This document shows, one piece after another, positions 14,683 to 35,415 of a stretch of 64,000 bases of DNA; the first letter of the stretch is position 1; each line of letters begins with the position of its first letter. Both the position numbers and the translations under genes were made by a program. The notes beneath the pieces are model-generated. The model saw only the letters and a program-made list of their open reading frames with translations, had not been told where the DNA came from and did no database searches. The stretch covers positions 124,001 to 188,000 of the forward strand of contig NZ_WKKH01000003.1 in assembly GCF_009674725.1 (NCBI RefSeq), written 5' to 3'. The DNA comes from Pedobacter petrophilus (GTDB lineage Bacteria; Bacteroidota; Bacteroidia; Sphingobacteriales; Sphingobacteriaceae).

Positions 14683-17670
14683 TTAAAAAGTAGCTTGTAA
14701 ACCAAAGATGAACTGCATGGTAGACGGATAATAATTTAAGTCATCATTTACGCCTGGCGTAAGTCCGTTTACCCGCACCTGTTCCGGATCTCCGCCTGTG
14801 TACTTGGTAAAAGTGTGGAGGTTTCTTCCGGCAGCATATAAGCGGATCGATTTTAAATATTTGTTATTCAACGGTTGCCTATAGCCCAGCGAAACGTTAT
14901 CAATTTTAACAAATGATCCGTTCTCAAGGAAATAATCAGAAGCAATAGCGGTTGTAGCGCTATTTTTAAGTAATGAATATTTGCTTCCGCTGTCATAAGC
15001 CGACTTTAATACATTTGCATCACTCTGGCTGGAAGGTGTTCCAAGATAGAAAGCATAAGAATTGAAGATCTTGTAACCAAATGTTCCCCTGAAGAATATG
15101 CCAAGGTCAAAACGTTTGTAGGTAAATGTATTTCCTAACGAGGTGATGTATTTTGGCAAACCATTGCCAACAAATTGTTTATCATCATTAGAAGCCAGAT
15201 TCGCCTGAACAATAGCGCCATCATTTTTATAAACCAGTAGTGCACCGGCATCATTAACACCTGCTGACCGGAGCATGTAAAACTCTCCAATGCTATGGCC
15301 TTCCTGAATGCGCTGAATATTTCCAGGAGATCCGGGAGCGGGCAATCCGGCTACATCCTGAAAGGTTCCTCCTTTATAAATCTCATTAGAAAAAGAAATG
15401 AATTTATTGCGGTTATAAGCAAATGCAACGTTAACGTTATAGCTAAAATCATCACTTTTCACTACTTCACCACTTAATGCCAGCTCGATACCGGAGTTTT
15501 TCATGGTTCCAACATTGGTAAAAGTGGTTTGCTGTGTATTAGGCGGAACCGGCACCGTATAATCACCCAATAAATCTTTGTTGGTACGGATATAATAGTC
15601 TAGTGAACCCGTAATTCGGCTATTTAGCACCGAGAAATCTAAACCAACGTTAAAGTTTTCTGATTTCTCCCAGCTTAAATCCGGGTTTACATTTGAGGTA
15701 GGTCCATAAACCTGGTAATATTGGCCGTTAAACGGGAAGTAACCTGCGCCACCATATAGCAACAACGAGCGGTAATTGTCGAAATCCTGGTTACCTGTCA
15801 CACCAAAATCTGCCCGCAGCTTTAACTCATTTACCCAGGGAAGAGATGCTTTCAGGAATTTTTCTTCGGAGATTCTCCAGGCAGCAGATACCGCCGGGAA
15901 ATTTCCCCATTTATTGTTGGCACCAAATTTTGAAGAACCTTCTCGCCTTAAACTCGCCGTTAGGATATATTTATTATCGAAATCGTAGTTTAAACGACCA
16001 AAGAACGAAATCAATGTAGAACCGTTTTGCGTGGAAGCTACTGCAGATTGACCTTGCCCTGCGGCACCGCCGTTGTAAAGCCCTGAGCCCAAATTATTCC
16101 ATAAATAAGTATCAAATGGGAAGTCATAGTTTTGAGCATACAATCTCTTGTAATTGTAAATTGCATAAGAATAACCACCCAGAAGCTTGAAATGGTGTTT
16201 TCCAAAATCCTCAGCATAATTCCCGGTCCACTCGATATTCTTCTGATCATTTTCCAGTTGTTCTTGTGAAGCAAAATTTGTTTGCGTAATCTTATTTGCC
16301 TGCACCACTGATGAAAGTGTAGATGGCCTGAAGTTAAAACTTTTTGCCGATCGGCTGATTTGTGAAATCATCACTGTTGTACTCAGGTTTTTAAGGATAT
16401 TCATCCGGAGAGATCCGTTCAAATCAAGCTCCTTAATTTCTGCTTCTGCTTTAATCTCATTGGCATTTTCAACAGGGTTGTTAGAGAAGAAGCCCGTATT
16501 GATATAATTATACTTACCGGCATTGTTAAAAATTGGATAAGTTGGATTCAGTGTGAGCGCGTTGTTGAAGTTTCCAAGGTCTGAATTATTAGTCTTCATA
16601 TACCTCGGTGCTGCCGTTAAGGTGGCTACAAACATGTTATTGTCTGTGGTGTGGTTCATGTTTAACCTGGCACCATATTCTCTTTTATGCGCCCGCAAGT
16701 CGATTCCATCGGCATCGCGATAGTCGCCAGAGGCAAAGAAGTTCGTTTTAGCTGTACCACCTGAAAATTGAGCCGTGTGTTTTTGGGCAAATGCCGGTGC
16801 ATTAGTGACCTCTTTTAGCCAGTTGGTTTTTGCTTTATAATCCTGTCCCTGTTTGTTAGCTACCCGATTGGAAATAAACTCATCAGCTGATAAATTTTCC
16901 AGCTCATTGGTCAGGTAATCAAAACTCATAAAGCCATCATAAAACATCTGAGACTGGGCACCACCTTTTTTGGTAGTGATGATAATTACACCATTACTGC
17001 CACGGGTACCGTAAATTGCAGATGCTGCACCACCTTTTAACACATCGATACTTTCGATATCATTTTGGTTAATGTTATCAATGTTTCCACCAGGGATACC
17101 ATTGATGACGTAAAGCGGACCTAAGCCAGCATTACGGGATGATACACCCCTTAGCTGAATGCTCGGACTTGAATTGGGATCACTACCTGAAGTATTGGTA
17201 ATACTTAAGCCCGGAACTTTGCCCTGAAGCGACATTAAAGGGTTATTGGATGATACCGTAAGCAGATCTTTGCCAGAAACATGCGTAATGGCACTGGATA
17301 CTTCCCGCTTATCAAGCGTTCCATAACCTACGCTTACTACCACTACTTCTTCGAGCGTATTGGAAGCCGAATTTAAAGCTACATTAATCACATCAGCTGA
17401 TGCGATTGTTACTGTTTTTGCCTGATACCCGATATAGCTAAACGTTAAACTTTTAGCGCCTGCCGGAACGGTGATGGCATATTTACCTTGGGTATTGGTT
17501 GATGTAGTTACAGATTTAGCATTGTCTGCCACAGTAACACCAGGGAGCGCTGTTCCATCTGCCACATCGGTGATTGTTCCGGTAATGACTCTGCTTTGCG
17601 CATTTGCAGGTGATGAAAGTATACAAAGAATTGAGCAAATGCTCAGTAAAAGTAGAAGTTTCTTGTACAT
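14683..17670 (-). CDS. SusC/RagA TonB-dependent receptor (second locus)
   Basis: A complete 995-residue SusC-family receptor. A signal peptide (ending SSPANAQS) leads directly into the CarboxypepD_reg-like Ig domain (ITGTITDVADGTALPGVTV, ending YIGYQAKTV). The linker and TonB-box area EEVVVVSVGYGTLDKREVSSAI follow, then the plug (LQGKVPGLSI, IDNINQNDIESIDVLKGGAASAIYG, GSNGVIIITTKKG) and a barrel ending in MQFIFGLQATF. No STN domain is present, so it is not an anti-sigma-signalling type. It is the first gene of a two-gene operon divergent from the DUF6377 regulator, with a perfect palindrome 59 nt upstream. Confidence 0.96.
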   Translation of the reverse strand: MYKKLLLLLSICSILCILSSPANAQSRVITGTITDVADGTALPGVTVADNAKSVTTSTNTQGKYAITVPAGAKSLTFSYIGYQAKTVTIASADVINVALNSASNTLEEVVVVSVGYGTLDKREVSSAITHVSGKDLLTVSSNNPLMSLQGKVPGLSITNTSGSDPNSSPSIQLRGVSSRNAGLGPLYVINGIPGGNIDNINQNDIESIDVLKGGAASAIYGTRGSNGVIIITTKKGGAQSQMFYDGFMSFDYLTNELENLSADEFISNRVANKQGQDYKAKTNWLKEVTNAPAFAQKHTAQFSGGTAKTNFFASGDYRDADGIDLRAHKREYGARLNMNHTTDNNMFVATLTAAPRYMKTNNSDLGNFNNALTLNPTYPIFNNAGKYNYINTGFFSNNPVENANEIKAEAEIKELDLNGSLRMNILKNLSTTVMISQISRSAKSFNFRPSTLSSVVQANKITQTNFASQEQLENDQKNIEWTGNYAEDFGKHHFKLLGGYSYAIYNYKRLYAQNYDFPFDTYLWNNLGSGLYNGGAAGQGQSAVASTQNGSTLISFFGRLNYDFDNKYILTASLRREGSSKFGANNKWGNFPAVSAAWRISEEKFLKASLPWVNELKLRADFGVTGNQDFDNYRSLLLYGGAGYFPFNGQYYQVYGPTSNVNPDLSWEKSENFNVGLDFSVLNSRITGSLDYYIRTNKDLLGDYTVPVPPNTQQTTFTNVGTMKNSGIELALSGEVVKSDDFSYNVNVAFAYNRNKFISFSNEIYKGGTFQDVAGLPAPGSPGNIQRIQEGHSIGEFYMLRSAGVNDAGALLVYKNDGAIVQANLASNDDKQFVGNGLPKYITSLGNTFTYKRFDLGIFFRGTFGYKIFNSYAFYLGTPSSQSDANVLKSAYDSGSKYSLLKNSATTAIASDYFLENGSFVKIDNVSLGYRQPLNNKYLKSIRLYAAGRNLHTFTKYTGGDPEQVRVNGLTPGVNDDLNYYPSTMQFIFGLQATF

Positions 17671-17728
17671 AGAATGGACGAGTTATTTTTTGGTTAGTTA
17701 ATGCTGTTTCTTGGTACAACTGAAAATA

Positions 17729-17746
17729 TTGGATTTGCAAATCCAA
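17729..17746. promoter_or_regulatory. Perfect 18-bp palindrome upstream of susC
   Basis: TTGGATTTGCAAATCCAA is a perfect palindrome with no spacer, centred about 67 nt before the susC start codon. Two 9-bp half sites fit a dimeric regulator. It could also form a short hairpin in the leader RNA, but with no loop that is less likely. The divergently encoded DUF6377 regulator is the obvious candidate partner, by position only. Confidence 0.5.
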
Positions 17747-18390
17747 AAGAAGCAGCGAAGCGATTAGCAAATTTTGAAATCATATTTCAGTATGATGGTG
17801 ATTTAAACTAAGGAGGTTTGTTTTTTCTCATAATTTGTAAGTTAATCCGGCAGAGATCTAAAGTGACTAAAAGGATTTACTGTTACTCGTTTTCGACAAT
17901 TCGAAATCTGCAGAGATGTATTTGGTTAAATTATTTTTTCGGTTGCTGACCAGGCCTGGCAAATCGAACATCTAATTTATAGACCATAAGCGAGGAAATA
18001 GAGGTAGATAAGGCCCCAGTTAAAAACATATAAGAAAAAAGAGCTTTGTATAAAATCAAAGCATTAATAATCAACCATTTACAATAAAAAGCATCAAGAA
18101 AAATATAAATTATTTAAGCGCTAAAATTGATAAAGAATCAAATATTAGCCATAATTACTATCATTTGGTCACTATTGGAAGTCGTTATAATAAGGCATTA
18201 TACTTTGTTTTTGCGCCATTCCTAGCCGTAAGGTGTATGTAGCAATAGGCTTTTATTGACGCTCTTTTAGAATAAAAGCATTCGAGATCTTTTAGCTTAA
18301 TTAAAATAGTTGCAGATTTTGCAAAGCAACCGGTGACTCGTTGCCTATGAATTATTTTTAATTAAACGTTTTACAGATATACAAATTGAC
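17747..18390. other. A+T-rich divergent spacer between susC and the DUF6377 regulator
   Basis: About 640 nt without a credible reading frame on either strand. It must hold the susC promoter and possibly distal regulator sites, but no clear TAnnTTTG box for susC was found. It is long for a divergent spacer in this window, and I see no repeat or RNA gene in it. Confidence 0.5.
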
Positions 18391-18398
18391 TATTTTTG
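18391..18398 (+). promoter_or_regulatory. Candidate -7 box (TAnnTTTG) for the DUF6377 regulator
   Basis: TATTTTTG matches the Bacteroidota -7 consensus TAnnTTTG and lies 20 nt before the regulator start codon. The -33 element is not obvious, so this is a weak prediction. Confidence 0.35.
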
Positions 18399-18418
18399 GA
18401 TCAACCTATCTCTTATAA

Positions 18419-20032
18419 ATGAAACGTTTGAGCGTTATCCTCCTCTTTCTGCAATTCAATTTTTTTTGTTTCTCATCCGTTAAAAAAGACAGCTTATTAA
18501 ATCAGCTTAAAATTGAAATTGCCAGAAAAGCTACTTATGACAGGCAAAAATTATCAAGGATTAAGGCCATACAATTGGAATTGTTGCTAAACAAAGGGAA
18601 CTCATATGACCAGGTGACTAAGCTATTTGACGAATACGAATATTTTAAATTTGATTCTGCTTATTTATATGGAAAAAGATTACTTGAAATTAGTACCCGA
18701 GCGAAAGACAGCGTAAAGTTAGCGCAAAGCAAAGTTAAGATTGCTTCTCTCTTATTGCATGCCGGCATGTTTAAAGAAACATTTGATTATTTAGCAGAGA
18801 TTGATGAATCAAAGCTTAACAGAAAGTTTAGATATGATTATTACTGCCTGAAGTCGGGAGCCTATTCAAATCTGGCAATTTACAATAACGACCCGAATTT
18901 CACCCGCCCCTATAATGAAAAAGCGATTGAATACCTCGATTCTGCCATTGCACTTTGTCAGCCAAATTCACTGGATTTGCTTTTTACACTCGGTAACCGA
19001 CAAGTAGTTTCTGGTGATATCAATAAACAGCCGAACTATTTTCTTAAATTATTAAAGCACTACAAATTAACGGCACATGATCGTGCCAGACTGCTAACTG
19101 CACTTGCTGCTTTCTATCAAAGCGAAACTGAAAACGACAAAAGAATCTGCTTATTGGCGGAATCTGCTATATATGACATCCGTTCTTCGACAAGGGAGAC
19201 GCTGGCCTCGCTCCTTCTTGCAGAAGATTTGTTTAAACAAGGTTACCTGGACGACGCTTATCTTTTTATTCTGCAATCAAGAGATGATGCTGGCTTTTAT
19301 GGAAACCGCCTCCGGAAACTTAAAATCGAATCGATCTTACCGGATATTGCTTCGCGTGTAAATTTGGAAAGCCAGCAAGATAAAAACAAGTTCATGATTT
19401 ATTCGGTTATTGTTTCCCTCATCACCATCGTAATTTTACTGGCATGTTTTATGATTTTTGTACGGCTAAAACGGCTCAGGTTAAAGGAGCAGATTATTGA
19501 AGAAAAAAATGAAGAACTGGAACAAATCAACAACCAGTTGTTATTCATCAATGATAAGTTGCGGGAATATGCTACAGTAAACGAAAAATACATTGGATAT
19601 TTTTTCGATGTAATTTCTGGTTATATCCTCAAACTTGACAGGCTGAAGAAAAATGTAGAACGAAAAATTCTCGCCAAAAGATATGGAGAGATTCTTCCAT
19701 CGCTACAAGAAATCAACATCAAAAACGAACGGGAAGTGCTGTTCAATACCTTCGACAGTGTATTCATCAGCATTTTCCCTAATTTTATAGAAGTATTCAA
19801 TTCCCTTCTAAACAAGGAAGACCAAATCTGGCCGAAGCATCCCGATTTTTTAAATACAGATTTGCGGATATTTGCACTTATGAGGCTGGGGATTCACGAT
19901 GTAAAAGCCATAGCTGCCATTCTGGAATATTCTGCGAATACGATCTATGTATATAAAATGCGAATTAAGGCCCGGGCATTAGTTTCCGGAGATGAATTTG
20001 ATCGCATTGTGATGTCGGTGAAGGCGGTGTAG
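18419..20032 (+). CDS. Membrane-anchored DUF6377 transcriptional regulator with helical repeats
   Basis: A 537-residue protein whose arrangement matches the DUF6377 regulators found beside SusC/SusD loci. A signal sequence is followed by about 300 residues of TPR-like helices, predicted to be periplasmic. One transmembrane helix lies at about 325-350 (FMIYSVIVSLITIVILLACF), then a charged coiled coil (QIIEEKNEELEQINNQLL) and a cytoplasmic C-terminal part. The last 60 residues (TDLRIFALMRLGIHDVKAIAAIL, then SANTIYVYKMRIKARA) look like a LuxR-type helix-turn-helix. The likely role is to sense an imported ligand in the periplasm and control the divergent susC-susD operon. The ligand is unknown, and direct DNA binding by a membrane-tethered protein is inferred from the family architecture. 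Confidence 0.8.
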   Translation: MKRLSVILLFLQFNFFCFSSVKKDSLLNQLKIEIARKATYDRQKLSRIKAIQLELLLNKGNSYDQVTKLFDEYEYFKFDSAYLYGKRLLEISTRAKDSVKLAQSKVKIASLLLHAGMFKETFDYLAEIDESKLNRKFRYDYYCLKSGAYSNLAIYNNDPNFTRPYNEKAIEYLDSAIALCQPNSLDLLFTLGNRQVVSGDINKQPNYFLKLLKHYKLTAHDRARLLTALAAFYQSETENDKRICLLAESAIYDIRSSTRETLASLLLAEDLFKQGYLDDAYLFILQSRDDAGFYGNRLRKLKIESILPDIASRVNLESQQDKNKFMIYSVIVSLITIVILLACFMIFVRLKRLRLKEQIIEEKNEELEQINNQLLFINDKLREYATVNEKYIGYFFDVISGYILKLDRLKKNVERKILAKRYGEILPSLQEINIKNEREVLFNTFDSVFISIFPNFIEVFNSLLNKEDQIWPKHPDFLNTDLRIFALMRLGIHDVKAIAAILEYSANTIYVYKMRIKARALVSGDEFDRIVMSVKAV

Positions 20033-20305: not shown

Positions 20306-21385
20306 TCATCCTTTTTTTCTCTTGAACCACCAAATGTAAAATCCGGTAATCGGTAAACTGGCGCAGATTAAACTCACCAGAAAGAAAATAATTTTTGTTG
20401 TCAGACCGCCAATTGCCCCAACATGCATAGCATAATTCAATTTACGGACTTTGTCCGAAAAAATAAGGTCTTTGAACTGTTTGCCTGATTCCTTTGTTAA
20501 AGAAAGATCTACCGGATTAAAAAAAAGGTCCCGCCAAATACCGTCTTTCATATCTGTACAGGCATAAATTGCTTCATTTGGTTCGTCTGGAAAAGAAACG
20601 ATGATGTCGTCTATATGATCAACAGCAATATGATTACGTACCTCGTACCATACCTGATCCACATTCTGCAACATAGGATTTGGCGAATCCCTAAATAGTT
20701 CTTTGACCGGACGTTGAGTCTGAGGGCGACCACCAGTTAACCAATAAATACTATTGGAGAACCAGGTAAAACTGATGACCAAGCCAGTGATTGCTAAAAG
20801 CAATGCGATGGTAAGGGAGTAAAATCCCAACACATTATGTAAATCGTAGTTGAAACGCTTAATGCGTGCACCCCACTTTATTTTAAAGTTTTGCTGGGTT
20901 GCTTTTTTATTCCATTTTTTTGGCCACCATAAAACCAGGCCCGTTAATAAAAGAACAACAAATACCAGCGTTGCGCAGCCAACTACCATTTTACCGACCT
21001 TTTTACCCATCCACAAATGCCGGTGTCCTTCCTCTATGAAATGAAAAATATCTTCCTGGCGTTTAAATGAGATGATCTTGGCTGTGTATGGATTTATATA
21101 AACAGACGAATCCTGAAGCGCTACGACCGAAGGCTTGCTCAACCCATAATACCATACTGTATTAATTTGCCGGCCCGGGATTGCCCGTGAGATTTCTCGA
21201 TATAGCACAGAGGGTGGGAGCAATTTGGATCTGTCCTGTACCGCAATCCTGACCTCAGTACCTAGCAGATTTTTAATCTCTTGCTCAAATACCAGTATGC
21301 ATCCTGTAAGGCTTAAGATCACAACTATTGCCCCAGATGCCAGCCCTAACCATAAATGTAACCAGGTAATTATTTTTTTAAGCAT
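20306..21385 (-). CDS. PepSY-associated TM protein, XusC-like (iron/siderophore locus)
   Basis: A 359-residue inner-membrane protein of the PepSY-TM family. The ATG at 21385 (MLKKIITWLHLWLGLASGAI) is preferred because it matches the family N-terminus. A start at 21430 adds 15 residues that run through a GC-rich hairpin. Four hydrophobic segments are visible: near the N-terminus, VVGCATLVFVVLLLTGLVLWW, LGFYSLTIALLLAITGLVIS, and IIFFLVSLICASLPITGFYIWW before a basic C-terminus. Large periplasmic PepSY-like loops lie between them. Homologues are thought to act in ferric-siderophore reduction or transfer across the inner membrane. It is the last gene after a TonB receptor and a DUF4374 lipoprotein, the same order as XusA-XusB-XusC of Bacteroides. 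Confidence 0.85.
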   Translation of the reverse strand: MLKKIITWLHLWLGLASGAIVVILSLTGCILVFEQEIKNLLGTEVRIAVQDRSKLLPPSVLYREISRAIPGRQINTVWYYGLSKPSVVALQDSSVYINPYTAKIISFKRQEDIFHFIEEGHRHLWMGKKVGKMVVGCATLVFVVLLLTGLVLWWPKKWNKKATQQNFKIKWGARIKRFNYDLHNVLGFYSLTIALLLAITGLVISFTWFSNSIYWLTGGRPQTQRPVKELFRDSPNPMLQNVDQVWYEVRNHIAVDHIDDIIVSFPDEPNEAIYACTDMKDGIWRDLFFNPVDLSLTKESGKQFKDLIFSDKVRKLNYAMHVGAIGGLTTKIIFFLVSLICASLPITGFYIWWFKRKKG

Positions 21386-21397
21386 AGGTAACCAATA

Positions 21398-21419
21398 GGG
21401 CATCCCTTTAGGGACGCCC
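21398..21419 (-). other. GC-rich hairpin between the DUF4374 gene and the PepSY gene
   Basis: On the coding strand GGGCGTCCC, a TAAA loop and GGGATGCCC form a 9-bp stem with one wobble pair, starting 12 nt after the upstream stop codon. There is no T tract after it, so it is more likely a processing or stability element, or a weak attenuator, than a full terminator. It also argues for the later start codon of the PepSY gene. Confidence 0.5.
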
Positions 21420-21430
21420 ATAAAATGCAA

Positions 21431-22684
21431 TTAGTATTTTAATTTAGAGATTGAGGTTACGTCTGTTGCGCCTTCTAGGTGTAACCCTTTGATGGCTGTA
21501 GCGGTTTCGGCGTTTATTAGATATACGTAGAACTGGCCTGCATCATCTTTAAACACATAATCGATTGTTTTACCATCGCCCTCATAATAAGTATTCAATT
21601 TGAATAGAGGTTGGGCATGTTCAGGAACACCGGTCACATAATTCACTGTTTTGGTGTTCACATCTACAATAGCCATTTTAACCCTACCGCCAGAAATATC
21701 ACCGGTAGTAACACCCGCATAAAGGGCCATCAAAAATTTACCGTTAGCAATATAGGCACCTCGGGCAATTTTAGCCTTGGCAACCTCTTCCATATTAAAG
21801 AAATAAGATTTGTCAAAAACTTCAGTCCCTTTTTTAATCCGAACAATACCTGATGGTTTGGTAGATTTAATCCCATTGATCTCTGGCGCAGTAGACCAGG
21901 TATAAACATCACCGTTCTCAATTTGCTTTAGACCCTGCATACTGAACCAGTTGCCTACGTAGCCTGTACGATCATCTGAAATGGTTTTCTCATATTTGAG
22001 TTCCGGATAGCTAAATACGGCAACCCAGGTACTGTCTAAACTGCCATATTTGCCTTGGCTAAACGGAGCGCCCGCAGCAGGAGGAAAAAATTTATAGTAA
22101 GGCATGTAGATCTTATTATCAACCTGGAACAAACCTGTCCAAACGGCGTTTGCACCTGTTTGGGTAATAGCTTTTAAATCGGTAGTGCTTCTATTTGCCA
22201 CCAAAAGGTTTTCCGCATCGAAGCGAAAGAGTTCGCCCACACCGCTGGAGCGTGGATCGCCTCCGCCTACCCAGGCGTTAGTATTCATGGTACCGTAAAC
22301 ACCTGTGCGGAAAGTTGTTACTACACGGCCAGAAGAGCCCATTTTTCCATCTGTATTTAATCCGAAAGGGGTAACTGGTCCCTGATCGGTATAGGCCTGC
22401 GCAAATACTTTATTGTTCTGAACAATAAATGAATAGGCATCAGTTTCTACCCCATTATTGGCAGAAGAAACAGTGCCCTTTGTTACGTCATCTGCCGTAA
22501 TAATATAGGTTCCTGTGGTACCGGATGCATTGCCGCTATAAACAAATACGTATTTAGACTTCGTTAGGTTATTTGGATCTGTTATGCCGCCTGTATCGGG
22601 TTCGTTATCGTTTTTGCTGCATCCACTAAGCAGTGCTATGGAAAGCAATGCACCTGACATTAATAAGTTAAAAGTTGTTTTCAT
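21431..22684 (-). CDS. DUF4374 lipoprotein, XusB-like siderophore-binding protein
   Basis: A 417-residue lipoprotein with lipobox LLSGC (Cys22), followed by a Gly/Asp-rich linker and a beta-propeller-like DUF4374 domain covering the rest. Family marks include YVFVYSGNASGTTGTYII, FSYPELKYEKTISDDR, DKSYFFNMEE and the C-terminal LHLEGATDVTSI. In Bacteroides, XusB of this family is a surface lipoprotein that captures ferric enterobactin for XusA. The gene starts 42 nt after the receptor stop and is followed by the PepSY gene, so the same role is likely here. The siderophore bound cannot be read from the sequence. Confidence 0.85.
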   Translation of the reverse strand: MKTTFNLLMSGALLSIALLSGCSKNDNEPDTGGITDPNNLTKSKYVFVYSGNASGTTGTYIITADDVTKGTVSSANNGVETDAYSFIVQNNKVFAQAYTDQGPVTPFGLNTDGKMGSSGRVVTTFRTGVYGTMNTNAWVGGGDPRSSGVGELFRFDAENLLVANRSTTDLKAITQTGANAVWTGLFQVDNKIYMPYYKFFPPAAGAPFSQGKYGSLDSTWVAVFSYPELKYEKTISDDRTGYVGNWFSMQGLKQIENGDVYTWSTAPEINGIKSTKPSGIVRIKKGTEVFDKSYFFNMEEVAKAKIARGAYIANGKFLMALYAGVTTGDISGGRVKMAIVDVNTKTVNYVTGVPEHAQPLFKLNTYYEGDGKTIDYVFKDDAGQFYVYLINAETATAIKGLHLEGATDVTSISKLKY

Positions 22685-22726: not shown

Positions 22727-25177
22727 TTACTGCGTTTGTTTAGAAATAAAATACCTGAGTTTGATGTTGAAAGCCCGGCTAGGTTTCTGTAGCATATAGT
22801 TGTCAAATAACCTGGCATCAGTTAGGTCAAGACACTCAAAGGCGATGTTATATTTTCCATTGGCAACTGTATATAGCAAGCTGGCATCATGTATCCATTG
22901 AGTCGGAATGATCAGTTTGCCATCCTTAGCCCCCTGGCTGGGCCAAAATAGGTAGAACTGGTTAACGTAACCTGCATTGTAGCTGATGGAAAAGCGGTCT
23001 TTGGGTTTAAAAATATGATTCATATACAAGGTGCCGTTAGCATTCCCGAATAGATAGGGTGTATTCGGTATGCGGTCACGGTATACAACACTTTGAACGG
23101 CCGACCTTGTCCCGTTAGCCAACGTTTCGAACTGCGTGCCATTGCGAAGATTCTGATAGGTGGCATTGGCGGTTATAGAAAACCTTTTTTTATAGGCATA
23201 TTGGATTTCCACATCTATTCCCCTGTTTGTTACCTTGGCCTCGTTCACGTTCATCTGGATATATTCGCCGTTACTATTGCTTGTACCGCCAGGAACCAGG
23301 ATGCCACGGATATAATCATTGGCATTTCGGAAGATGTAGTTTGCAGAAATATCCAAATAATGCACCTTGTTAAGGTTAAAGCTGTAGGTGGCCCCTAAAT
23401 TTAGGTTATGGCTGTTTTCGGGCTTGAGTGCTATATTACTGGTCTCATTGATTTCATCGCCAAACAACTCATTATTATCCGGCAACCGGTATGCACGTTC
23501 ATAGGATGTTTTTATTTGAAGATCTGCTGCTAAAAAATACGTGGCTGCTAACCCATAACCGGTTTTAGAGAGGTTGGAAGTTCGGTCTGCAATGCTGTAA
23601 TTATACGTTGCGGCTATAGCATCGTAAGTGGCCGTAACCAAGTTACTGATGATATTTTGGTTGTATTGTTTTACAAAAGCTGTGGTATTGAATTTCTCGC
23701 TGATATCATATTTATAACCCAGTCCGAGCATGTTTTTGCGTGTTACCCTTGGCTGTTTGTCGTATATATTTTCCGGATCGAAACTGTTTTGACCCTCACG
23801 ATTAAAGGTGGTGTAAAGTTCATTTAGCGAAACCGAATGTTTTTCATTGATCTGGTAATTTAATCCCACACTGGCAATCCCATTATTATTCTTAAACTTA
23901 TAGTCTCTCAGGGAAACTTCACCCCCGGGTGCTGAAGGATTAACCTTGTTCTTATAAACAAAAGATCCGTCCCAGGTATATCTTTTATTTGCAGTGTCAA
24001 CTGTACGTTCTTCGCCAAAATTGAAATTACCACTTACGTTGAGGTCCAAACCGCTTAGCAACAGATTTTTCTTGGAATACTTAAAGGAAGGCTGTACAAT
24101 ATTGCCTGATCGCCAGCGTGCGCCGTATACATCGTACATGCGGTTACCGGTTTGAATATCGGCGCGGTTTTTACCTAGTGTTAAACCAAAAAGCAGTTGG
24201 TCGGCATATTTTTTACCGGTAACACCAATGTTGGCTACCAGAGTTTCATTATGGTAATGATCATGAAAACGTTTTACCCGGCTTGGATTATTGAGACCGG
24301 TTACCTGGTCTACTACATCAACATCTACCCAATAATTATTGTCTGAATAATTTTGGAACGCATTTAGCTGAACGGTGAAGCCGGATTTGGCAGTATAACC
24401 AGCATTAACAGCCGACTTATGGGTATTGAACGATCCATATGAATAGGAAGCGTCTAAATAAGTGCGTGGTTTGGAATTGGAGATAATATTTACCGCCCCG
24501 CCCAATGCATCGCCCCCCAACCAAACCGGTACAACTCCTTTATAAACCTCAATCCTGTCGGCAAAATTTACGGGAATATTGTTCAGCTGGAAAGACGATC
24601 CGAAATTATCCATAGGTACGCCATCCAGAAAAAACCGTACCTGGCGGCCTGTAAAACCATTGAGACTAAAACGCAGGTCTGATCCTATTCCACCAGATTC
24701 CCTAATCCTCGCTCCAGAAACCCTGTTTATTACTTGGCCAAGATCCATTGTGGTATTATGTAATGGTTTTGCATCTATCGAAGTGACGTTGTAAGCCTGC
24801 TTACCGATCTCTTTTGATTTAGTGATGCCAAGGATGGAAACTTCTTCTAGTTTTTCTGTGGTTTTATCCAGTACAAGATTATAAATATGGGTATCACCAG
24901 CTTTAATGATGATTTCTTTGTTCTGCTTTCGATAGCCTACCACAATAATTTCTAAATTGTATTTACCCGGCTTAAGATTTTCAAAAAAGTAACCACCTTC
25001 ACGATCAGTAGCCTGGGCAATTTTAATAGGCAACAGCCTGATTGTTGCATCTTGCACAGGGATTTGATGATCATCTGTTATATTCCCCTTTAAAGTTCCA
25101 GGTGGATTGGCCTGTGAGCGGGCGCAGAGCGAAAGCAAACAAAATGCCCCCGTTAGCAAAAGCTTATTGAATTCCAT
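22727..25177 (-). CDS. TonB-dependent receptor, XusA-like (siderophore type)
   Basis: An 816-residue outer-membrane receptor. The ATG at 25177 gives a proper signal peptide (MEFNKLLLTGAFCLLSL, ending RSQA); the ATG at 25246 would add 23 residues before it. Next come a CarboxypepD_reg Ig-like domain (LKGNITDDHQIPVQDATIRL), a TonB-box area (EKLEEVSILGITK), and the plug with GARIRESGGIGSDLRFSLNG and VPVWLGGDALGGAVNIIS. The barrel ends with INIKLRY-type strands (AFNIKLRYF). There is no STN domain. The barrel is of the single-chain siderophore/haem type rather than SusC. A conserved motif at 25257-25289, shared with the anti-sigma upstream region, probably marks its ECF-dependent promoter. Confidence 0.9.
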   Translation of the reverse strand: MEFNKLLLTGAFCLLSLCARSQANPPGTLKGNITDDHQIPVQDATIRLLPIKIAQATDREGGYFFENLKPGKYNLEIIVVGYRKQNKEIIIKAGDTHIYNLVLDKTTEKLEEVSILGITKSKEIGKQAYNVTSIDAKPLHNTTMDLGQVINRVSGARIRESGGIGSDLRFSLNGFTGRQVRFFLDGVPMDNFGSSFQLNNIPVNFADRIEVYKGVVPVWLGGDALGGAVNIISNSKPRTYLDASYSYGSFNTHKSAVNAGYTAKSGFTVQLNAFQNYSDNNYWVDVDVVDQVTGLNNPSRVKRFHDHYHNETLVANIGVTGKKYADQLLFGLTLGKNRADIQTGNRMYDVYGARWRSGNIVQPSFKYSKKNLLLSGLDLNVSGNFNFGEERTVDTANKRYTWDGSFVYKNKVNPSAPGGEVSLRDYKFKNNNGIASVGLNYQINEKHSVSLNELYTTFNREGQNSFDPENIYDKQPRVTRKNMLGLGYKYDISEKFNTTAFVKQYNQNIISNLVTATYDAIAATYNYSIADRTSNLSKTGYGLAATYFLAADLQIKTSYERAYRLPDNNELFGDEINETSNIALKPENSHNLNLGATYSFNLNKVHYLDISANYIFRNANDYIRGILVPGGTSNSNGEYIQMNVNEAKVTNRGIDVEIQYAYKKRFSITANATYQNLRNGTQFETLANGTRSAVQSVVYRDRIPNTPYLFGNANGTLYMNHIFKPKDRFSISYNAGYVNQFYLFWPSQGAKDGKLIIPTQWIHDASLLYTVANGKYNIAFECLDLTDARLFDNYMLQKPSRAFNIKLRYFISKQTQ

Positions 25178-25256
25178 AAACCAAAACCTTGTTTGCGAGG
25201 TTAAACGAATTGGAAAATGAGTAAATGGTGATTTATTATGGTGCATTTGAAGGGTA

Positions 25257-25289
25257 GTAGCACAACCCAGTACTTTCCGAAGGTGGTTC
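25257..25289 (-). promoter_or_regulatory. Predicted ECF-sigma promoter of the XusA-like receptor
   Basis: On the + strand it reads GTAGCACAAC, 7 nt, TTTCCG, one base, AGGTGGTT. The same pattern with the same 7-nt spacing occurs at 27251-27282. On the coding strand this is CGGAAA followed by GTTGTGCTAC. GGAAA resembles the -35 element recognised by FecI-type sigma factors, and the distance to CTAC fits a -10. It lies 80-112 nt before the receptor start codon. Confidence 0.6.
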
Positions 25290-25304
25290 TGAAAAAAAAT
25301 AGTT

Positions 25305-26570
25305 TTATTTTTTCTGATCGTACAATTTATCGATCCTCAAGATAAAATCTGTCTCTCCTGATAGCTGTAGTCCACGTTTTAACGACCCGGTTTTAATGTT
25401 ATATTCCCAGATATAACAACCCTTCTTAGGTGAGTTGATTGCAATGTATGCGATGTTACCCTGCACGATAACGCATTCTTTTCTAGTGCCCTTGTCCAAT
25501 GGCAGGTCTAACTTTTTTATTTCCTTCGTATCCAGATTCAGTACATGAAATTCAAAGTGAGGGGTACGATAGTGGTCGTTTAGACCTTTGAACAGATCTG
25601 CTCTTTCCGAACGAATGATGACTTGACGTTGGCCCAGATACCACATTCCATAAGCATGGTTTTTAATGGAAGAGCCAGAGATGTTAAAAAAATAGCTTTT
25701 GTCTGTTTCAGCCTGGGTAGCTTTTATTCGAAATATAGCTGTTGGAAGTTCTGGCCTGTTTCCTAAAGCAATACCAGGGCATGACATGAAATAAAGGTCT
25801 TGCTTTTCATCCTTAAAGGAATAAGGCTGTATAACATTTTGCCCTCCAGGATAAGTTGAACGGATATCTTTATGGGTTTTGACCAGTTTCATGCTGGGAT
25901 AGTTCAGTTCTGAAACATACATCGTATCGCTGGTTTTAAAATTATTAATATCCTGCGATACGTGATACGTATATCCCAATAGCAGACTATTACCTGATCT
26001 TTGTTCAAGCAAACCGATAGAAAGCGTTGTAAATTCGCCTGATGGCCTGGGTATGTCCAGGTTTCCATGCGATATGACTTTCATGGTTGCGGCATTGAGC
26101 AACACAAATTTAGGTGTATTATAGGCCGGCGCGTTTAGGCCCGTTAGCAGGAGCGTATCACCTTTAATCCATTTAAAACACTCTATAGAAAAATTTTTTA
26201 GCAAAAAAGATGATTCGACCTCGACTTCGCCGGGCAACACTTTAAATTTTGAGAACAAGTGTGTTTTAGCGTTTAAACGATAATAGTTAGCATTTCTAAC
26301 GATGAGGTCACGCCCTTTATAGTTCTGGGTAATTTCTGTTCCGTAAACTTCCGGTTTAATGGAACCACTATCCAGATTTGAAGTATGCACTACATAGGTT
26401 TTATTATTCTTTCCGAGGATATATAAGCTGAATTTTGCATCACTGGCATCTTTATTTCCGGTTGAGCACGCACTTAAAACGGCCACAGCGATTAAAATAA
26501 AAAGCTTTCCCCCAACAATTGCCTTATACCAGGAAGAGTGCTTCAAAATAAGTAGGTGTTTAAATATCAA
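25305..26570 (-). CDS. Second DUF4374-like lipoprotein, overlapping the anti-sigma gene
   Basis: A 421-residue protein with an unusually long N-terminal region before a lipobox VLSAC (Cys35). The body resembles the downstream DUF4374 lipoprotein: LYILGKNNKTYVVHTSNLDSG near the start, LNYPSMKLVKTHKDIR, the shared DKSYFFN motif, and a C-terminal LQLSGETDFILRI ending. It is therefore a divergent paralogue. Its start lies inside the last codons of the anti-sigma gene (11-nt overlap), which suggests translational coupling with the regulator rather than with the receptor. It may be a second siderophore-binding protein, or a sensor that passes ligand state to the anti-sigma. Neither role is proven. 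Confidence 0.75.
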   Translation of the reverse strand: MIFKHLLILKHSSWYKAIVGGKLFILIAVAVLSACSTGNKDASDAKFSLYILGKNNKTYVVHTSNLDSGSIKPEVYGTEITQNYKGRDLIVRNANYYRLNAKTHLFSKFKVLPGEVEVESSFLLKNFSIECFKWIKGDTLLLTGLNAPAYNTPKFVLLNAATMKVISHGNLDIPRPSGEFTTLSIGLLEQRSGNSLLLGYTYHVSQDINNFKTSDTMYVSELNYPSMKLVKTHKDIRSTYPGGQNVIQPYSFKDEKQDLYFMSCPGIALGNRPELPTAIFRIKATQAETDKSYFFNISGSSIKNHAYGMWYLGQRQVIIRSERADLFKGLNDHYRTPHFEFHVLNLDTKEIKKLDLPLDKGTRKECVIVQGNIAYIAINSPKKGCYIWEYNIKTGSLKRGLQLSGETDFILRIDKLYDQKK

Positions 26571-27192
26571 AATGCTTGGTTATTTGTCTCTGCATCAAAG
26601 GTGGAAGATCGAACACGTCCTGCTTATTCACCACAATGATACTTTCCGATCCGGTTTTATTTTTAAAGATGATATAACTCTGTCCTTTTTTTAAAGATAT
26701 CTTGGTTTTTGTACCTTCTAAAACCAACTGTACGTCTTTGTTGGCCAATATTAACACACTGCCGTTAAGGTAAATGATGCCCCGTCCATCATTGATACTG
26801 GCAATCGTATTTGGACCTACAGAAACGTCGTATCCTATTGAATTGACCTGTTTTACGGCATAGGCCGAATTGTTGTTCAGCGATAATAATTCCACCTTCT
26901 GTTGAAGAAGAAAGTAAGCTGCTGCAGCCAGCATACAAATGACCATGGATGCTGCAATGGCACCTTTCCACACATAATAACTACTGCTCTTAGACTTAGT
27001 CGTTTCGGTTTCATCTGTTACTGAACGGATGTTGTTCCACATTTCCGCTTTGTGGACATATTTATCTTCGCCAGGCGGTAGCAACAGATCATCAGCGCTT
27101 GTGCTTAATAACCATTCCTCCACAGCCTTCCGCTCTGCGGGAGTGCAGGCACCCTGGTGATAATGTTCTAAAGCCTCCTTGCTAATTCTCAT
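26560..27192 (-). CDS. Short FecR-like anti-sigma factor
   Basis: A 210-residue protein with a cytoplasmic N-terminus containing the FecR_N-type helical region (ALEHYHQGACTPAERKAVEEWL), one membrane helix at about 76-97 (GAIAASMVICMLAAAAYFLL) and a periplasmic beta-rich domain (SVGPNTIASINDGRGIIYLNGS, then KTKISLKKGQSYIIF) like the FecR domain. Typical Bacteroidota FecR proteins are about 320-400 residues and end with a DUF4974 domain that contacts the STN domain of the receptor. That domain is absent here. It presumably holds the ECF sigma factor encoded just upstream inactive until a signal arrives. A shared promoter-like motif lies 59-90 nt before its start. Confidence 0.8.
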   Translation of the reverse strand: MRISKEALEHYHQGACTPAERKAVEEWLLSTSADDLLLPPGEDKYVHKAEMWNNIRSVTDETETTKSKSSSYYVWKGAIAASMVICMLAAAAYFLLQQKVELLSLNNNSAYAVKQVNSIGYDVSVGPNTIASINDGRGIIYLNGSVLILANKDVQLVLEGTKTKISLKKGQSYIIFKNKTGSESIIVVNKQDVFDLPPLMQRQITKHFDI

Positions 27193-27250
27193 AAATGGAC
27201 AGTTGCGGTGTGATAAGGAAAATTAGATAAAGTTATGAATTTAATTGTAA

Positions 27251-27282
27251 GTAGCGCAACAACCCCGTTTCCGTAGGTGCTT
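27251..27282 (-). promoter_or_regulatory. Predicted ECF-sigma promoter of the anti-sigma/DUF4374 unit
   Basis: On the + strand: GTAGCGCAAC, 7 nt, TTTCCG, one base, AGGTGCTT. Outside the 7-nt spacer and the single variable base it differs from the site at 25257-25289 at only two positions. It lies between the sigma gene and the anti-sigma gene, so the sigma factor could drive its own anti-sigma as negative feedback. Confidence 0.6.
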
Positions 27283-27296
27283 ACTATAAATATTTA

Positions 27297-27830
27297 TCAA
27301 TAACCAGCCAGACCAAGTTTAAGGGAACTCATGGCCCGTGTAATATGATACTCTACTGCTCTTTCTGATATGTTGAGTATAGCTGCAATCTCCTTGTTAT
27401 GAAGGCCCTGTTTGCGACTAAGTTTATATACTTTTTTGCATTGTGTAGGCAAGGTATCTACCAGATTTTCTATTTTATCTTTAAGATCATTATATAAAAC
27501 CTGTTCTTCTGTACAATTAGATGTAGCGGGATAGCCTATTAGTTGAGATTCATGAATACGCTTCCGGTTAACCTTGTTTCTAATATATTCAAAAGCTTTG
27601 AATTTTGCAGATCTCATCAGATAATGCTCTATTTCTACGAGCTGAAGATCGTCCCGCCGTTCCCAGAGTGATCTGAAAATATCCTGAACCATTCCCTTTG
27701 CTGGTTCAACATCTCCAATATTATTATAACAAACGGCAAATACTTTCTCCCAATAAATGTTATAAGCTTTTTCGAACGACTGTTTGTCGATCTGAACTGT
27801 CTTACCAGGAAAAAACTTTTTTAAGTCCAT
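27297..27830 (-). CDS. ECF (FecI-type) RNA polymerase sigma factor
   Basis: A 177-residue sigma-70 family ECF factor. Region 2 is visible (ECF-type helices with FEKAYNIYWEKVFAVCY, VQDIFRSLWERRDDL and YLMRSAKFKAFEYIRNK). Region 4 has LVDTLPTQCKKVYKLSRKQG and the helix-turn-helix HNKEIAAILNISERAVEYHI. Length and organisation are those of Bacteroidota FecI homologues, which are normally paired with FecR. The anti-sigma gene starts 104 nt downstream behind its own promoter motif. A TAnnTTTG box at 27850-27857 could give basal, housekeeping-sigma transcription of this gene. Confidence 0.9.
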   Translation of the reverse strand: MDLKKFFPGKTVQIDKQSFEKAYNIYWEKVFAVCYNNIGDVEPAKGMVQDIFRSLWERRDDLQLVEIEHYLMRSAKFKAFEYIRNKVNRKRIHESQLIGYPATSNCTEEQVLYNDLKDKIENLVDTLPTQCKKVYKLSRKQGLHNKEIAAILNISERAVEYHITRAMSSLKLGLAGY

Positions 27831-27849: not shown

Positions 27850-27857
27850 CAAATATA
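27850..27857 (-). promoter_or_regulatory. Candidate -7 box for the ECF sigma gene
   Basis: On the - strand the sequence is TATATTTG, an exact match to TAnnTTTG, 20 nt before the sigma start codon. It overlaps the short palindrome ATTTGCAAAT at 27845-27854, which could be an operator. Confidence 0.4.
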
Positions 27858-28189
27858 GTTTATTAAGATTAATTATAAATAGCTTGATGTAAATTCCTTT
27901 CCACTCCCTCCATGCATCTTTAGCTTTTTGCGTCTATATTTAACAAGTATTGATTTAAAAAGCGGAAGTTATTGGAGGGCAAAAAAAGTTCCCTTGAAAA
28001 TCGGGCAATAAAAAAGGAGTACTATTATCACTTTTAATGTTAGCCCAACAACAAAATATCAGGATTCTATGATTGTTCCCTGGAACAATCTGCTTCATAG
28101 AATCAACGCCCTGTATCTCCACAGAACCACAGTTGATAAACTTGTAAGGTTAAGCTTTTGCTATCAAAGAAAAACTGTTGCCGGAATTT
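27858..28189. other. Spacer between the sigma and HxlR genes, holding a nested inverted repeat
   Basis: About 330 nt with no credible reading frame. Apart from the promoter area of the sigma gene, the only structure is the nested inverted repeat at 28063-28104, described separately. Confidence 0.5.
28063..28104. repeat. Nested inverted repeat downstream of the HxlR gene
   Basis: An outer 9-bp pair GATTCTATG (28063-28071) and CATAGAATC (28096-28104) encloses an inner perfect 8-bp pair ATTGTTCC (28072-28079) and GGAACAAT (28082-28089) with a 2-nt loop; a 6-nt bulge CTGCTT separates the right arms. It may end the HxlR transcript, although no strong T tract follows, or be a small palindromic element. 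Confidence 0.6.
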
Positions 28190-28552
28190 TTATAAAGGCT
28201 CATCGATGACGATCAGGTTCCGATGAGTTTCTCCCCATTCTGATAGAACCCCAATGATTGATTTTGCTGATTTGCCGTATTCGGTCAGCTCATAAGTTAC
28301 TGTAACAGGCTGTGTAACGCTTACCGTTCGCTTGACTAAGCGATTTGTTTCCATTTCCTTCAGTTCCCGACTGAGCACTTTCCCAGAAATACCCTGTACA
28401 TCACGTAAAAGTTCTGAGTACCGTTTGGAGCCAAATAGTAGGGCGGTTATAATATATATTTTCCATTTCCCTCCCAAAACATACATTGCATCATGTACGC
28501 CCATAATAGCTTTCTTGCACTCGTGTGATGGTGTTGCTGTTACTTTAAACAT
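28190..28552 (-). CDS. HxlR-family winged-helix transcriptional regulator
   Basis: A 120-residue HxlR/MarR-like regulator. The N-terminus has the conserved Cys (HECKKAIMGVHDAMYVLGGKWK; Cys12), followed by the winged helix (RYSELLRDVQGISGKVLSRELKEME, VTYELTEYGKSA). The family responds to reactive or electrophilic compounds, often through that Cys. It is divergent from an NAD(P)H-dependent nitroreductase-type gene with an inverted repeat between them, the usual arrangement of a regulator and its target. Confidence 0.92.
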   Translation of the reverse strand: MFKVTATPSHECKKAIMGVHDAMYVLGGKWKIYIITALLFGSKRYSELLRDVQGISGKVLSRELKEMETNRLVKRTVSVTQPVTVTYELTEYGKSAKSIIGVLSEWGETHRNLIVIDEPL

Positions 28553-28576
28553 GGTTACCTAAATGTCACTATTACT

Positions 28577-28597
28577 TTTTGTCACTTGACGACAAAA
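28577..28597. promoter_or_regulatory. Candidate HxlR operator between the divergent genes
   Basis: TTTTGTC (28577-28583) and GACAAAA (28591-28597) form a 7-bp inverted repeat around a 7-nt centre, with an overlapping inner GTCA-CT-TGAC pair. It lies in the 86-nt spacer between the HxlR gene and the oxidoreductase, where it could control both promoters. Confidence 0.5.
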
Positions 28598-28638
28598 GTA
28601 AACATATAATAACGAAGTTTGCGGAACAAAAAAATATT

Positions 28639-29268
28639 ATGAATATTATAGAAAATCTTGAATGGCGTTATGCTACTAAAAAGTTCAGTGACCAAAAAGT
28701 ATCCACTGAAGATTTAAACGAAATTCTGCAAGCTACCAATCTATCCGCTTCATCAACTGGTCTGCAGCCCTACCGTGTATTGGTTATGGAAAATGAGCAG
28801 CTTCGTAAAGAACTCGGTGAAGGTTCTTTTAACTCACAAATATCACAATCTTCGCATCTGTTGGTATTTGCCGCGTATGATAAGGTTACCCTTGAGCAGA
28901 TTGAGACCTACATTTCGCATATTGCAAGCGAACGTGGTATTTTGGAAGATACTCTGGCAGATTTTAAAGCAGCACTAGTTGGTGGCCTTCTTTCCAGAAC
29001 TGATGAAGAAAATTTCCATTGGGCAGCAAGGCAGGCCTACATCGGATTAGGAACAGCTTTAATAGCCGCAGCTGAATTAAAAATAGATTCAACACCGATG
29101 GAAGGATTCGACATTGAAAAATTTGATTCTTTACTCCAGCTGAAAGAAAAAGGACTCAGGCCAGTAGTTCTTTTATCGTTAGGATATCGTGATGCTGTGA
29201 ATGATTATTTCGCTAATCTAAAAAAAGTGCGATTGCCTTTAGATGAGTTCGCTATTGATGTAAAATAA
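28639..29268 (+). CDS. NAD(P)H-dependent oxidoreductase, nitroreductase family
   Basis: A 209-residue FMN nitroreductase-fold enzyme. The ATG at 28639 (MNIIENLEWRYATKKFS) is chosen because family members begin this way (RYATKKF binds FMN phosphate); the ATG at 28579 would read through the operator. Other marks are SASSTGLQPYRVLV, FNSQISQSSHLLVFAA, HWAARQAYIGLGTALIAAAEL and the C-terminal LRPVVLLSLGYRDAVNDYF. It probably reduces nitro compounds or quinones in the cytoplasm and is likely induced through the divergent HxlR regulator in response to such compounds. Confidence 0.92.
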   Translation: MNIIENLEWRYATKKFSDQKVSTEDLNEILQATNLSASSTGLQPYRVLVMENEQLRKELGEGSFNSQISQSSHLLVFAAYDKVTLEQIETYISHIASERGILEDTLADFKAALVGGLLSRTDEENFHWAARQAYIGLGTALIAAAELKIDSTPMEGFDIEKFDSLLQLKEKGLRPVVLLSLGYRDAVNDYFANLKKVRLPLDEFAIDVK

Positions 29269-34756: not shown

Positions 34757-35287
34757 TTAAGCCATTTCAGCAATGGCAATATCTTTAGAATATGTTTTTA
34801 AGTATTTTTTCAATATTCCGCGGGCTACATGAATACGGGTTTTTACAGTTCCGATTGGAATTTGTAACATATCAGCAATTTCATGGTATTTATATCCTTC
34901 GAAATAGCGAATAAACGGAACGTAATATTCTTCTGGCAATTGAGCAAGTGCTTTATCGATATCGCCCAACACAAACTTACTTTCTGCCTGATTTTTAGTC
35001 GCGCTGTAAGAAAGATTTGCAGATGAAATATCTTCACTCTGTGTAATTAATGTATTTGTTTTAACCAAACGACGATAGTTATTAATGAAGGTGTTTTTCA
35101 TGATGGTAAACAACCAACCTTTTAAATTCGTACCCTCTTTAAACTTATTGTAATAAGTAATGGCTTTCAGCATCGTATCCTGTACAAGATCATTAGCGTC
35201 TTCTGCATCTTTTGTAAAGTTTAAAGCATAAGATCTAAGTGAAACTGAGTGATGGTTAACCAGGTGGTTGAATTCAAATTTTGTCAT
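34757..35287 (-). CDS. ECF RNA polymerase sigma factor near carotenoid genes
   Basis: A 176-residue sigma-70 ECF factor; the ATG at 35287 (MTKFEFNHLVNHHSVSLRSYA) is preferred over one ten codons upstream. Region 2 contains DANDLVQDTMLKAITYYNKF and GTNLKGWLFTIMKNTFINNYRR. Region 4 contains AQLPEEYYVPFIRYFEGYKYHEIADML and IPIGTVKTRIHVARGILKKYL. No anti-sigma gene is adjacent. The placement between crtI and murB/crtZ hints at control of pigment or envelope genes, but factors of this type are widespread in Bacteroidota and the link is not shown by sequence. Confidence 0.9.
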   Translation of the reverse strand: MTKFEFNHLVNHHSVSLRSYALNFTKDAEDANDLVQDTMLKAITYYNKFKEGTNLKGWLFTIMKNTFINNYRRLVKTNTLITQSEDISSANLSYSATKNQAESKFVLGDIDKALAQLPEEYYVPFIRYFEGYKYHEIADMLQIPIGTVKTRIHVARGILKKYLKTYSKDIAIAEMA

Positions 35288-35415
35288 GATATTTAGCTTT
35301 AGGTACAATAAAAACAAATGAATTGATGTTCATTTGCATTAGTCTAATCAAACTTAATACCAAAAAAACCTGGCACACTTTGCTATTCATTAAAGTGGCC
35401 CAAAACGTGTTTTCG

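Follow-up and report, generated by a model that had tools for sequence, protein, structure and literature searches.

Among the closest described counterparts of the arrangement reported here is the HasI-HasS-HasR (HasISR) heme system of Serratia marcescens, in which the sigma factor HasI drives expression of the anti-sigma gene hasS and the receptor gene hasR but not of hasI (PMC9249621). A 64,000-nucleotide stretch of the Pedobacter petrophilus genome (contig NZ_WKKH01000003.1, positions 124,001 to 188,000; referred to here as the window) contains two closely similar sites with the same layout. One lies before a TonB-dependent receptor gene and the other before a putative anti-sigma gene, and no such site was found in the window before the gene for a FecI-like extracytoplasmic function (ECF) sigma factor at 27297-27830. 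We consider it probable, at roughly 0.83 from sequence comparisons, that the two sites are promoters for this sigma factor in a HasISR-like, Fur-gated circuit for xenosiderophore uptake.

The likeness to HasISR may extend to the control of the sigma gene, which is by Fur in Serratia and is represented here by a Fur-like box, and it includes the HasI -35 sequence, TTTACGGGTTT, which shares TTACGG with the sites before anti-sigma genes in relatives of P. petrophilus (PMC9249621). The window locus differs in that it is expected to respond to a siderophore rather than heme, its receptor lacks a signalling domain, its anti-sigma has one periplasmic subdomain, a gene for an extra DUF4374 lipoprotein is inserted, and the organism belongs to another phylum. 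FecIRA, PupIRB, and FoxIRA, as described in the portions of PMC9249621 and PMC11637429 available to us, also resemble the locus in having a FecI-like sigma factor, a TonB receptor as the target, Fur-type control of the sigma gene (putative in the window), and a membrane anti-sigma of the PupR-type fold, of which the window locus has the first subdomain only. In contrast to these systems, the 29 receptors scanned carry no STN domain and the anti-sigma carries no FecR_C domain. The anti-sigma gene is also a likely target here, whereas FecI, in the same portions, does not drive fecIR. XusABC of Bacteroides (PMC13142918) consists of a TonB receptor, a DUF4374 lipoprotein, and a PepSY protein in the order found in the window, but the window operon stands behind a sigma/anti-sigma/lipoprotein module with probable promoters of its own. 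In the main text of that paper, to the extent available, neither "anti-sigma" nor "regulat" occurs, and "sigma" occurs once, for image noise.

Four classical sigma/FecR/SusC loci scanned in the same genome also have a TIGR02985-type sigma gene followed by anti-sigma and receptor genes. They differ in having long anti-sigmas with both FecR and FecR_C (4/4), STN in two of the four receptors (one FecR_C match and one STN match are slightly under the cut-off), and no motif. Among the matches listed in a search of open-licence papers, each available in part, there was neither a sigma-controlled Xus locus nor the motif. As far as searched, the parts are of known kinds and the novelty lies in their combination, in the promoter definition, and in the stripped signalling contact.

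Both sites were found where a preliminary description of this DNA had placed them, 5' of the TonB receptor gene and 5' of the anti-sigma/lipoprotein unit, and with the sequence it described. On the forward strand they read GTAGCACAAC-CCAGTAC-TTTCCG-A-AGGTG (25257-25285) and GTAGCGCAAC-AACCCCG-TTTCCG-T-AGGTG (27251-27279). Their components are listed below.

25257-25285, minus strand: receptor-promoter site (T site), CACCTTCGGAAA-N7-GTTGTGCTAC on the coding strand, conserved before the receptors of relatives
25277-25284, minus strand: -35-like box of the T site, ACCTTCGG
25257-25261, minus strand: -10-like box of the T site, GCTAC
25292-25299, minus strand: T-tract upstream of the -35-like box, a possible UP-like element; a T-tract is conserved upstream of T sites
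27251-27279, minus strand: anti-sigma-promoter site (A site), between the sigma and anti-sigma genes, CACCTACGGAAA-N7-GTTGCGCTAC on the coding strand
27271-27278, minus strand: -35-like box of the A site, ACCTACGG
27251-27255, minus strand: -10-like box of the A site, GCTAC

Between the end of the A site and the ATG of the anti-sigma gene (27192) there are 58 nt. The most likely receptor start is the ATG at 25177, which begins a signal-peptide-like sequence as judged by eye, and the T site therefore ends 79 nt before the start. The ATG at 25246 was rejected as the start because only about 10 nt would remain after the T site.

With up to three mismatches, the site pattern had two matches in the window versus none in 100 shuffles, and two in the whole 5,474,439-base genome versus none with the reversed pattern. 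This is the genome scan that the preliminary description had proposed as a check, and it returned both sites in place rather than a motif that is frequent without positional preference. A genome-wide repeat is ruled out by two matches in 5.47 Mb. A looser own-genome pattern, in which the fixed T was one position off so that the known sites scored one mismatch, found the two known sites and four others versus four control matches. Three of the four others are in open reading frames (ORFs), and one (L343) is in no frame of at least 120 codons.

The -35 position had earlier been assigned to GGAAA. That assignment did not stand, as the third base of GGAAA is variable (T 22, G 10, A 7) among 39 receptor sites, which include that of the window and were picked by similarity to the window's own sites, so that flanking positions are the fairer measure of conservation. 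In cT(T)CGG, the T, C, G, and G are present in 39/39 of these sites, the first C in 35, and the second T in 34. Conservation is highest in CTTCGG (T sites), [C/T]T[A/T]CGG (A sites), and GC[T/A]AC, and on this ground CTTCGG/TTACGG is a better candidate for the -35-like box than GGAAA. The center-to-center distance to the downstream box is about 21 nt from CTTCGG and about 17 nt from GGAAA, and a distance of about 21 nt is near the usual ECF geometry. In sequence and position, the sites have the form of an ECF-type promoter, with a pair of conserved boxes spaced like -35 and -10 elements ahead of the target genes. At 47 sites, a median of 28 nt (range, 14 to 76) separates the site from the estimated receptor start, which fits a transcription start just after GC[T/A]AC.

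The same measurements bear on whether the sites are instead operators for a conventional DNA-binding regulator encoded elsewhere, with the promoter core lying upstream or downstream. The motif is long for an ECF promoter, and some downstream positions, in an AT-rich stretch, are partly conserved, as an operator with a separate core might have it. However, a median of 28 nt leaves little room for a downstream core promoter, and the sites show no evident palindrome or direct repeat; they consist of two dissimilar boxes, spaced as in a promoter and preceded by a T-tract. The spacing shifts by one in one lineage, as it does between -35 and -10 boxes, and the regulator that stays with the site in the loci examined is the sigma/anti-sigma pair. 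Thus, we regard operators as unlikely and promoters for the sigma factor as the better description of both sites.

Conservation was evaluated in a family draw of 301 genomes, which were searched for the anti-sigma (44 stretches fetched, later 17 more), and most anti-sigma loci had the order sigma, anti-sigma, lipoprotein, receptor, lipoprotein, PepSY. The consensus before the receptors is ACCTTCGGnAA-N7-gTTnnGC[T/A]AC, usually preceded by a T-tract. In genomes with the module, the window's included, 48 of 52 receptor upstream regions scored at least 13 of 19 and 43 scored at least 15 (hand count); L204, one of the 48, is an artefact, as its 11-kb region was badly cut. Among shuffled regions, the 95th percentile was 12 to 13, rising to 14 for the long region of L204, and the highest score in 200 shuffles was 13 to 15. 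The four regions below 13 were that of L094, that of L100, which is a spacing variant, and those of L200 and L201, where another gene follows the site. A sites ([C/T]T[A/T]CG[G/T]-N15-GCTAC) were recognized in 29 of 76 loci with an anti-sigma, including loci of Dyadobacter and Spirosoma, and no Sphingobacterium locus was among the 29.

When named genomes were scanned with the upstream lipoprotein as the query, the best 80 of 94 loci were retained, which came from Pedobacter, Mucilaginibacter, Sphingobacterium, Dyadobacter, Spirosoma, Niabella, Chitinophaga, Filimonas, and others, many of them the same genomes as in the family draw. The core CTTCGG-N15-GC[T/A]AC had 54 matches in the 1,165,105 bases of these 80 loci, and the reversed control had three. 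Forty-seven matches were within 320 nt before a receptor, three before an anti-sigma gene, one before a DUF4374 gene, one before a PepSY gene, and two elsewhere; none in the 80 loci was labelled to a sigma gene. Named loci with the site include Dyadobacter, Spirosoma, and Niabella. A phylum draw gave three matches in 3 of 296 genomes versus 10 control matches, and the two besides the window's were both in ORFs; there was no signal outside the family in that draw. A FecI-like sigma factor gains in this way a promoter definition conserved across several genera, which would allow sequence-based prediction of regulons for the sigma group. Natural controls stand behind the definition, namely, receptors without the module, a swapped receptor, and detached targets.

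The site accompanies the sigma/anti-sigma module rather than the receptor alone. Of 55 same-genus genomes without a near full-length anti-sigma match, 40 were searched with the window's receptor, and 27 receptors were returned from 21 of them. None of these 27 receptors from genomes without a detected full-length anti-sigma had an upstream region reaching 13 of 19 (best score, 12; the L238 region is only 140 nt long). Eighteen of the 27 are 42 to 52% identical to the window's receptor and the other nine 28 to 33%; many site-bearing receptors (33 to 40%) are further from the window's receptor than the 18 are. One of the 18, in L217, adjoins a more distant sigma (39%). That locus (L217:1510-5234) has the sigma, an anti-sigma, the receptor (52%), and a DUF4374 gene, with no middle lipoprotein, no motif, and a short run of N. 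L217 is possibly a sister system that uses a different promoter.

The genome has 33 TIGR02985 matches at E<=1e-8, and cross-talk between ECF sigma factors is known in general, which gives some room for the sites being read by another ECF sigma of the genome, with adjacency to the sigma at 27297-27830 incidental. However, no such site was present at the 12 other sigma loci checked (best scores, 8 to 12 of 19; in L136 the genes overlap, leaving the anti-sigma gap unscannable, and in L143 no FecR gene was called). A motif common to the genome's other sigma loci was rejected on these 12 of the 33 sigma-like genes. The 27 same-genus receptors without the module also lack a site, and yet at least 8 of the 40 searched control genomes show partial matches to longer FecR-like frames. 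Furthermore, the type of the site fits the tree of the sigma at 27297-27830. Reading by another sigma is therefore very unlikely.

The trees appear to separate the histories of the sigma factor and the receptor. The 27-row receptor clade that contains the window's receptor also includes the 18 control receptors and eight Sphingobacterium-group receptors with sites ending in GCAAC. The window's sigma groups with sigmas of Pedobacter, and the sites of these end in TTGTGCTAC. In type, the window's site goes with its sigma, although its receptor belongs to a different clade than the receptors of the sigma's relatives. The tree of the 42 site-bearing sigmas has five changes of the site end (GCTAC or GCAAC), a count given without a shuffle comparison. 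Most simply, these placements would mean an exchange of the receptor cassette in which the promoter remained with the sigma, although the placement is uncertain because the trees are quick and the window's rows are long-branched. The same result speaks to whether the sites are a conserved leader RNA or repeat element that travels with the receptor gene and is not a promoter. Most copies are linked to one receptor family, as such an element would be, but the 18 window-clade receptors without the module have no site, the window's site is nonetheless of the sigma-clade type, and copies also occur before anti-sigma and YncE-like genes. A leader or repeat element is thus the least probable of the alternatives, with hardly any likelihood left to it. 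The proposal of the preliminary description that the ECF sigma at 27297-27830 recognizes the motif gains support from these comparisons, in the site's association with the module, its fit to the sigma lineage after the receptor swap, its absence from the 12 other sigma loci, and the detached targets described below.

With up to three mismatches, the window's own pattern matched 55 times in 46 of the 301 genomes (reversed control, 16; hand count), and a stricter family pattern matched 46 times in 44 of the 301 (control, 10; hand count). All but one of the 46 (in G123) were placed: 25 were before receptors, 4 before YncE-like propellers, and 16 inside ORFs, where the start codon is upstream of the site. 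For L176, L181, L184, and L188 among the receptor cases, the stop-to-stop frame of the receptor includes the site, which nonetheless precedes the first start codon of that frame. An intergenic site was placed in 28 genomes, and every one of them belongs to the 49 in which the anti-sigma search gave a near full-length match (hand count; E up to 1.4e-8, one match in two pieces).

Some of these sites lie far from the sigma gene. In G299 (L104) the target is a receptor about 115 kb away, and on other contigs (L102, L103) targets are a second receptor in G188 and a receptor in G251, where the sigma contig ends before the usual receptor position. In G166 and G238 (L200/L201) the site precedes a propeller gene that is separated from the sigma by 2.6 and 3.6 Mb of the sequence record, or by 2.5 and 1.7 Mb in the opposite direction, assuming a circular chromosome. 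The propeller gene adjoins genes for a TonB receptor, a siderophore-interacting protein, and a periplasmic binding protein, with the domain scan covering L201 only. Thus, the regulon, which had been called self-contained, is so in this genome, but some relatives have further targets. Across four Sphingobacterium-group genomes, the motif precedes YncE-like propellers at L200:4974-5000, L201:5037-5063, L202:5234-5260, and L203:13253-13279, and the propellers have TonB or outer-membrane barrel genes as neighbors (domain scans covered L201 and L202).

The genes of the locus, in their order on the minus strand, are as follows.

27297-27830, minus strand: FecI-like ECF sigma factor, 177 amino acids (aa) (TIGR02985, 128 bits, cut-off 126.4; PF08281)
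26560-27192, minus strand: short membrane protein, putative anti-sigma, 210 aa (structure-model alignment with PupR 6ovk)
25305-26570, minus strand: divergent DUF4374 (XusB-like) lipoprotein between anti-sigma and receptor, overlapping the anti-sigma gene
22727-25177, minus strand: XusA-type TonB-dependent receptor, 816 aa, with CarboxypepD_reg, plug, and barrel and no STN (9gbc_A, E 8.7e-172)
21431-22684, minus strand: DUF4374 lipoprotein, XusB-like (PF14298; XusB 9hqe_A, E 3.1e-28)
20306-21430, minus strand: PepSY_TM inner-membrane protein, XusC-like (PF03929, E 4.1e-65)

The score of the sigma factor above the curated TIGR02985 cut-off places it among FecI-like ECF sigma factors. The last three genes, an adjoining XusA receptor (9gbc_A is a solved receptor structure), XusB DUF4374 lipoprotein, and XusC PepSY protein, look like a Xus xenosiderophore operon as in Bacteroides (PMC13142918). 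The Bacteroides thetaiotaomicron counterpart is listed with ratios of 489.4 to 676.1 in the available iron-dependent stimulon table of PMC10434189, which we take as up at low iron. In the family of the upstream lipoprotein, the lipobox-type Cys is invariant in the A1 set, and a 14-sequence A1 profile matches XusB 9hqe with an E value of 2.9e-14. The same locus is present in Pedobacter nototheniae (NZ_RQRS01000020.1).

We infer an anti-sigma role for the 210-aa protein. It has cytoplasmic helices, a helix at residues 70 to 96 taken as the membrane span, and one FecR-fold periplasmic domain at 100 to 210. In its structure model (pLDDT 82.2, pTM 0.50), residues 100 to 210 align with PupR 6ovk residues 111 to 250 (Z 9.4, rmsd 3.3, 102 residues). 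A Parabacteroides anti-sigma also aligns (Z 8.7, rmsd 3.5, 103 residues), and the next unrelated structure has a Z of 4.8. With Foldseek, the top rows were 4m0h_B (E 1.1e-3) and 4m0h_A (E 3.1e-3), none at or below 0.001. Of the two periplasmic subdomains of PupR, the modelled anti-sigma has the counterpart of the first, and its chain stops at the point at which the second would follow. Pfam searches at E<=0.01 found no FecR or FecR_C in any of 38 anti-sigmas and no STN in any of 29 receptors, the window's included; in eight of the anti-sigmas FecR was not found by Pfam even at E 10, and a profile of the 38 against PDB sequences gave nothing useful. PupR needs both periplasmic subdomains to bind the receptor signalling domain, according to the available portion of PMC9249621, and the FoxR STN-like domain is required for the same contact, according to that of PMC11637429. 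With neither STN nor FecR_C, both partners of the usual contact are missing here. The locus points to a signalling route that does without the receptor domain used by well-studied cell-surface signalling systems.

A tentative explanation, which we hold to be somewhat less probable than its opposite, is that the middle lipoprotein (25305-26570) took over the STN role and relays receptor occupancy to the one-domain anti-sigma, so that the module accepts exchangeable XusAB cassettes. An exchange of this kind seems to have occurred in the window. However, L217 has a sigma and an anti-sigma without the middle lipoprotein, and in four Pedobacter loci (L256, L257, L272, and L308) the middle lipoprotein (51 to 53%) stands alone, and none of the 15-kb loci has a match to the sigma, the anti-sigma, or the receptor. 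Acidic residues after the lipobox average 0.86 across the upstream lipoproteins (81 sequences) and 1.47 across the downstream ones (64 sequences), a comparison that serves as a hint of surface export and from which we make no claim on the facing of the upstream lipoprotein because some lipobox picks are visibly wrong.

Two features point to separate control of the sigma gene.

27860-27882, no strand assigned: palindromic Fur-like box before the sigma gene, from the sequence pattern
27850-27857, minus strand: TATATTTG, the TANNTTTG -7 element, housekeeping type, for the sigma gene's own putative promoter

The TANNTTTG element, the housekeeping -7 consensus in the available text of PMC9723704, is present in 54 of 76 sigma upstream regions, and the palindrome ends 1 to 5 nt before it in 51 of the 76. 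We read the palindrome before the sigma gene as a putative Fur box. With up to five mismatches, the palindrome, near TTATTTAGANTNANTCTAAATAA, occurs in 69 of the 76 regions versus 0 of 76 single shuffles, a count that is partly circular because the Fur-like consensus was derived from the same regions. In the window's genome the pattern occurs in 21 places versus three for the control. Six of 10 genes scanned beside the genome copies are iron-linked (FeoA, aconitase, NuoB, a succinate dehydrogenase subunit, which is below its cut-off, and two TonB receptors), and the other four are not obviously so (a gluconate dehydrogenase subunit, a DUF6686 protein, a trehalase, and an acyl-CoA dehydrogenase). 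The palindrome and its readable neighbor set could define the Fur box for the genus.

In the proposed circuit, iron shortage would lift a Fur-like repressor from the box beside the sigma gene's housekeeping promoter, and the sigma factor would be made. It would be held by the short membrane anti-sigma until a ferric (xeno)siderophore engages the XusA-XusB receptor pair and the sigma factor is released. Region 4 would read the CTTCGG/CTACGG box and region 2 the GC[T/A]AC box. Transcription of the receptor operon from the T site would be a positive drive on uptake, and transcription of the anti-sigma and the extra XusB-like lipoprotein genes from the A site would provide negative feedback through new anti-sigma. 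The sigma gene itself would be outside the regulon.

Several observations weigh against this circuit in addition to the circularity of the Fur-like count and the four genes that are not obviously iron-linked. The exact core is before the receptor in 47 of 68 named loci with a receptor match, and some loci (L094/L287, L204/L304) have no recognizable T site. Other T sites have drifted, with a spacing of +1 and GCAAC in one Sphingobacterium group, and with the upstream box as TTGCGG in another Sphingobacterium group and as TTCCG in two Dyadobacter loci; the downstream box is kept in these variants. The T/A base of GC[T/A]AC differs between the near-identical sigmas of L087 and L088 and therefore is not strictly read. 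With an A site in only 29 of 76 loci, feedback through the anti-sigma is not universal. Furthermore, the sigma, anti-sigma, and receptor genes are mostly linked, and their co-occurrence with the site is partly synteny.

Other features were noted near the locus and among the sigma-like genes of the genome. A second TIGR02985-like sigma gene in the window (34757-35317; 100.9 bits, below the cut-off) has no large same-strand gene close behind it within the listed stretch. A sigma-like gene elsewhere in the genome (G000:C82:1180-1650) contains an in-frame TGA and is probably a pseudogene. A gene for an HxlR-type regulator, divergent from a nitroreductase gene, is directly upstream of the sigma gene at 27297-27830 (window 28190-29268). 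On the other side, adjoining the Xus operon, a SusC-type receptor gene lies beside a gene for a SusR-family glycan regulator (window 14683-20032; NF058541, 535.6 bits, cut-off 480).

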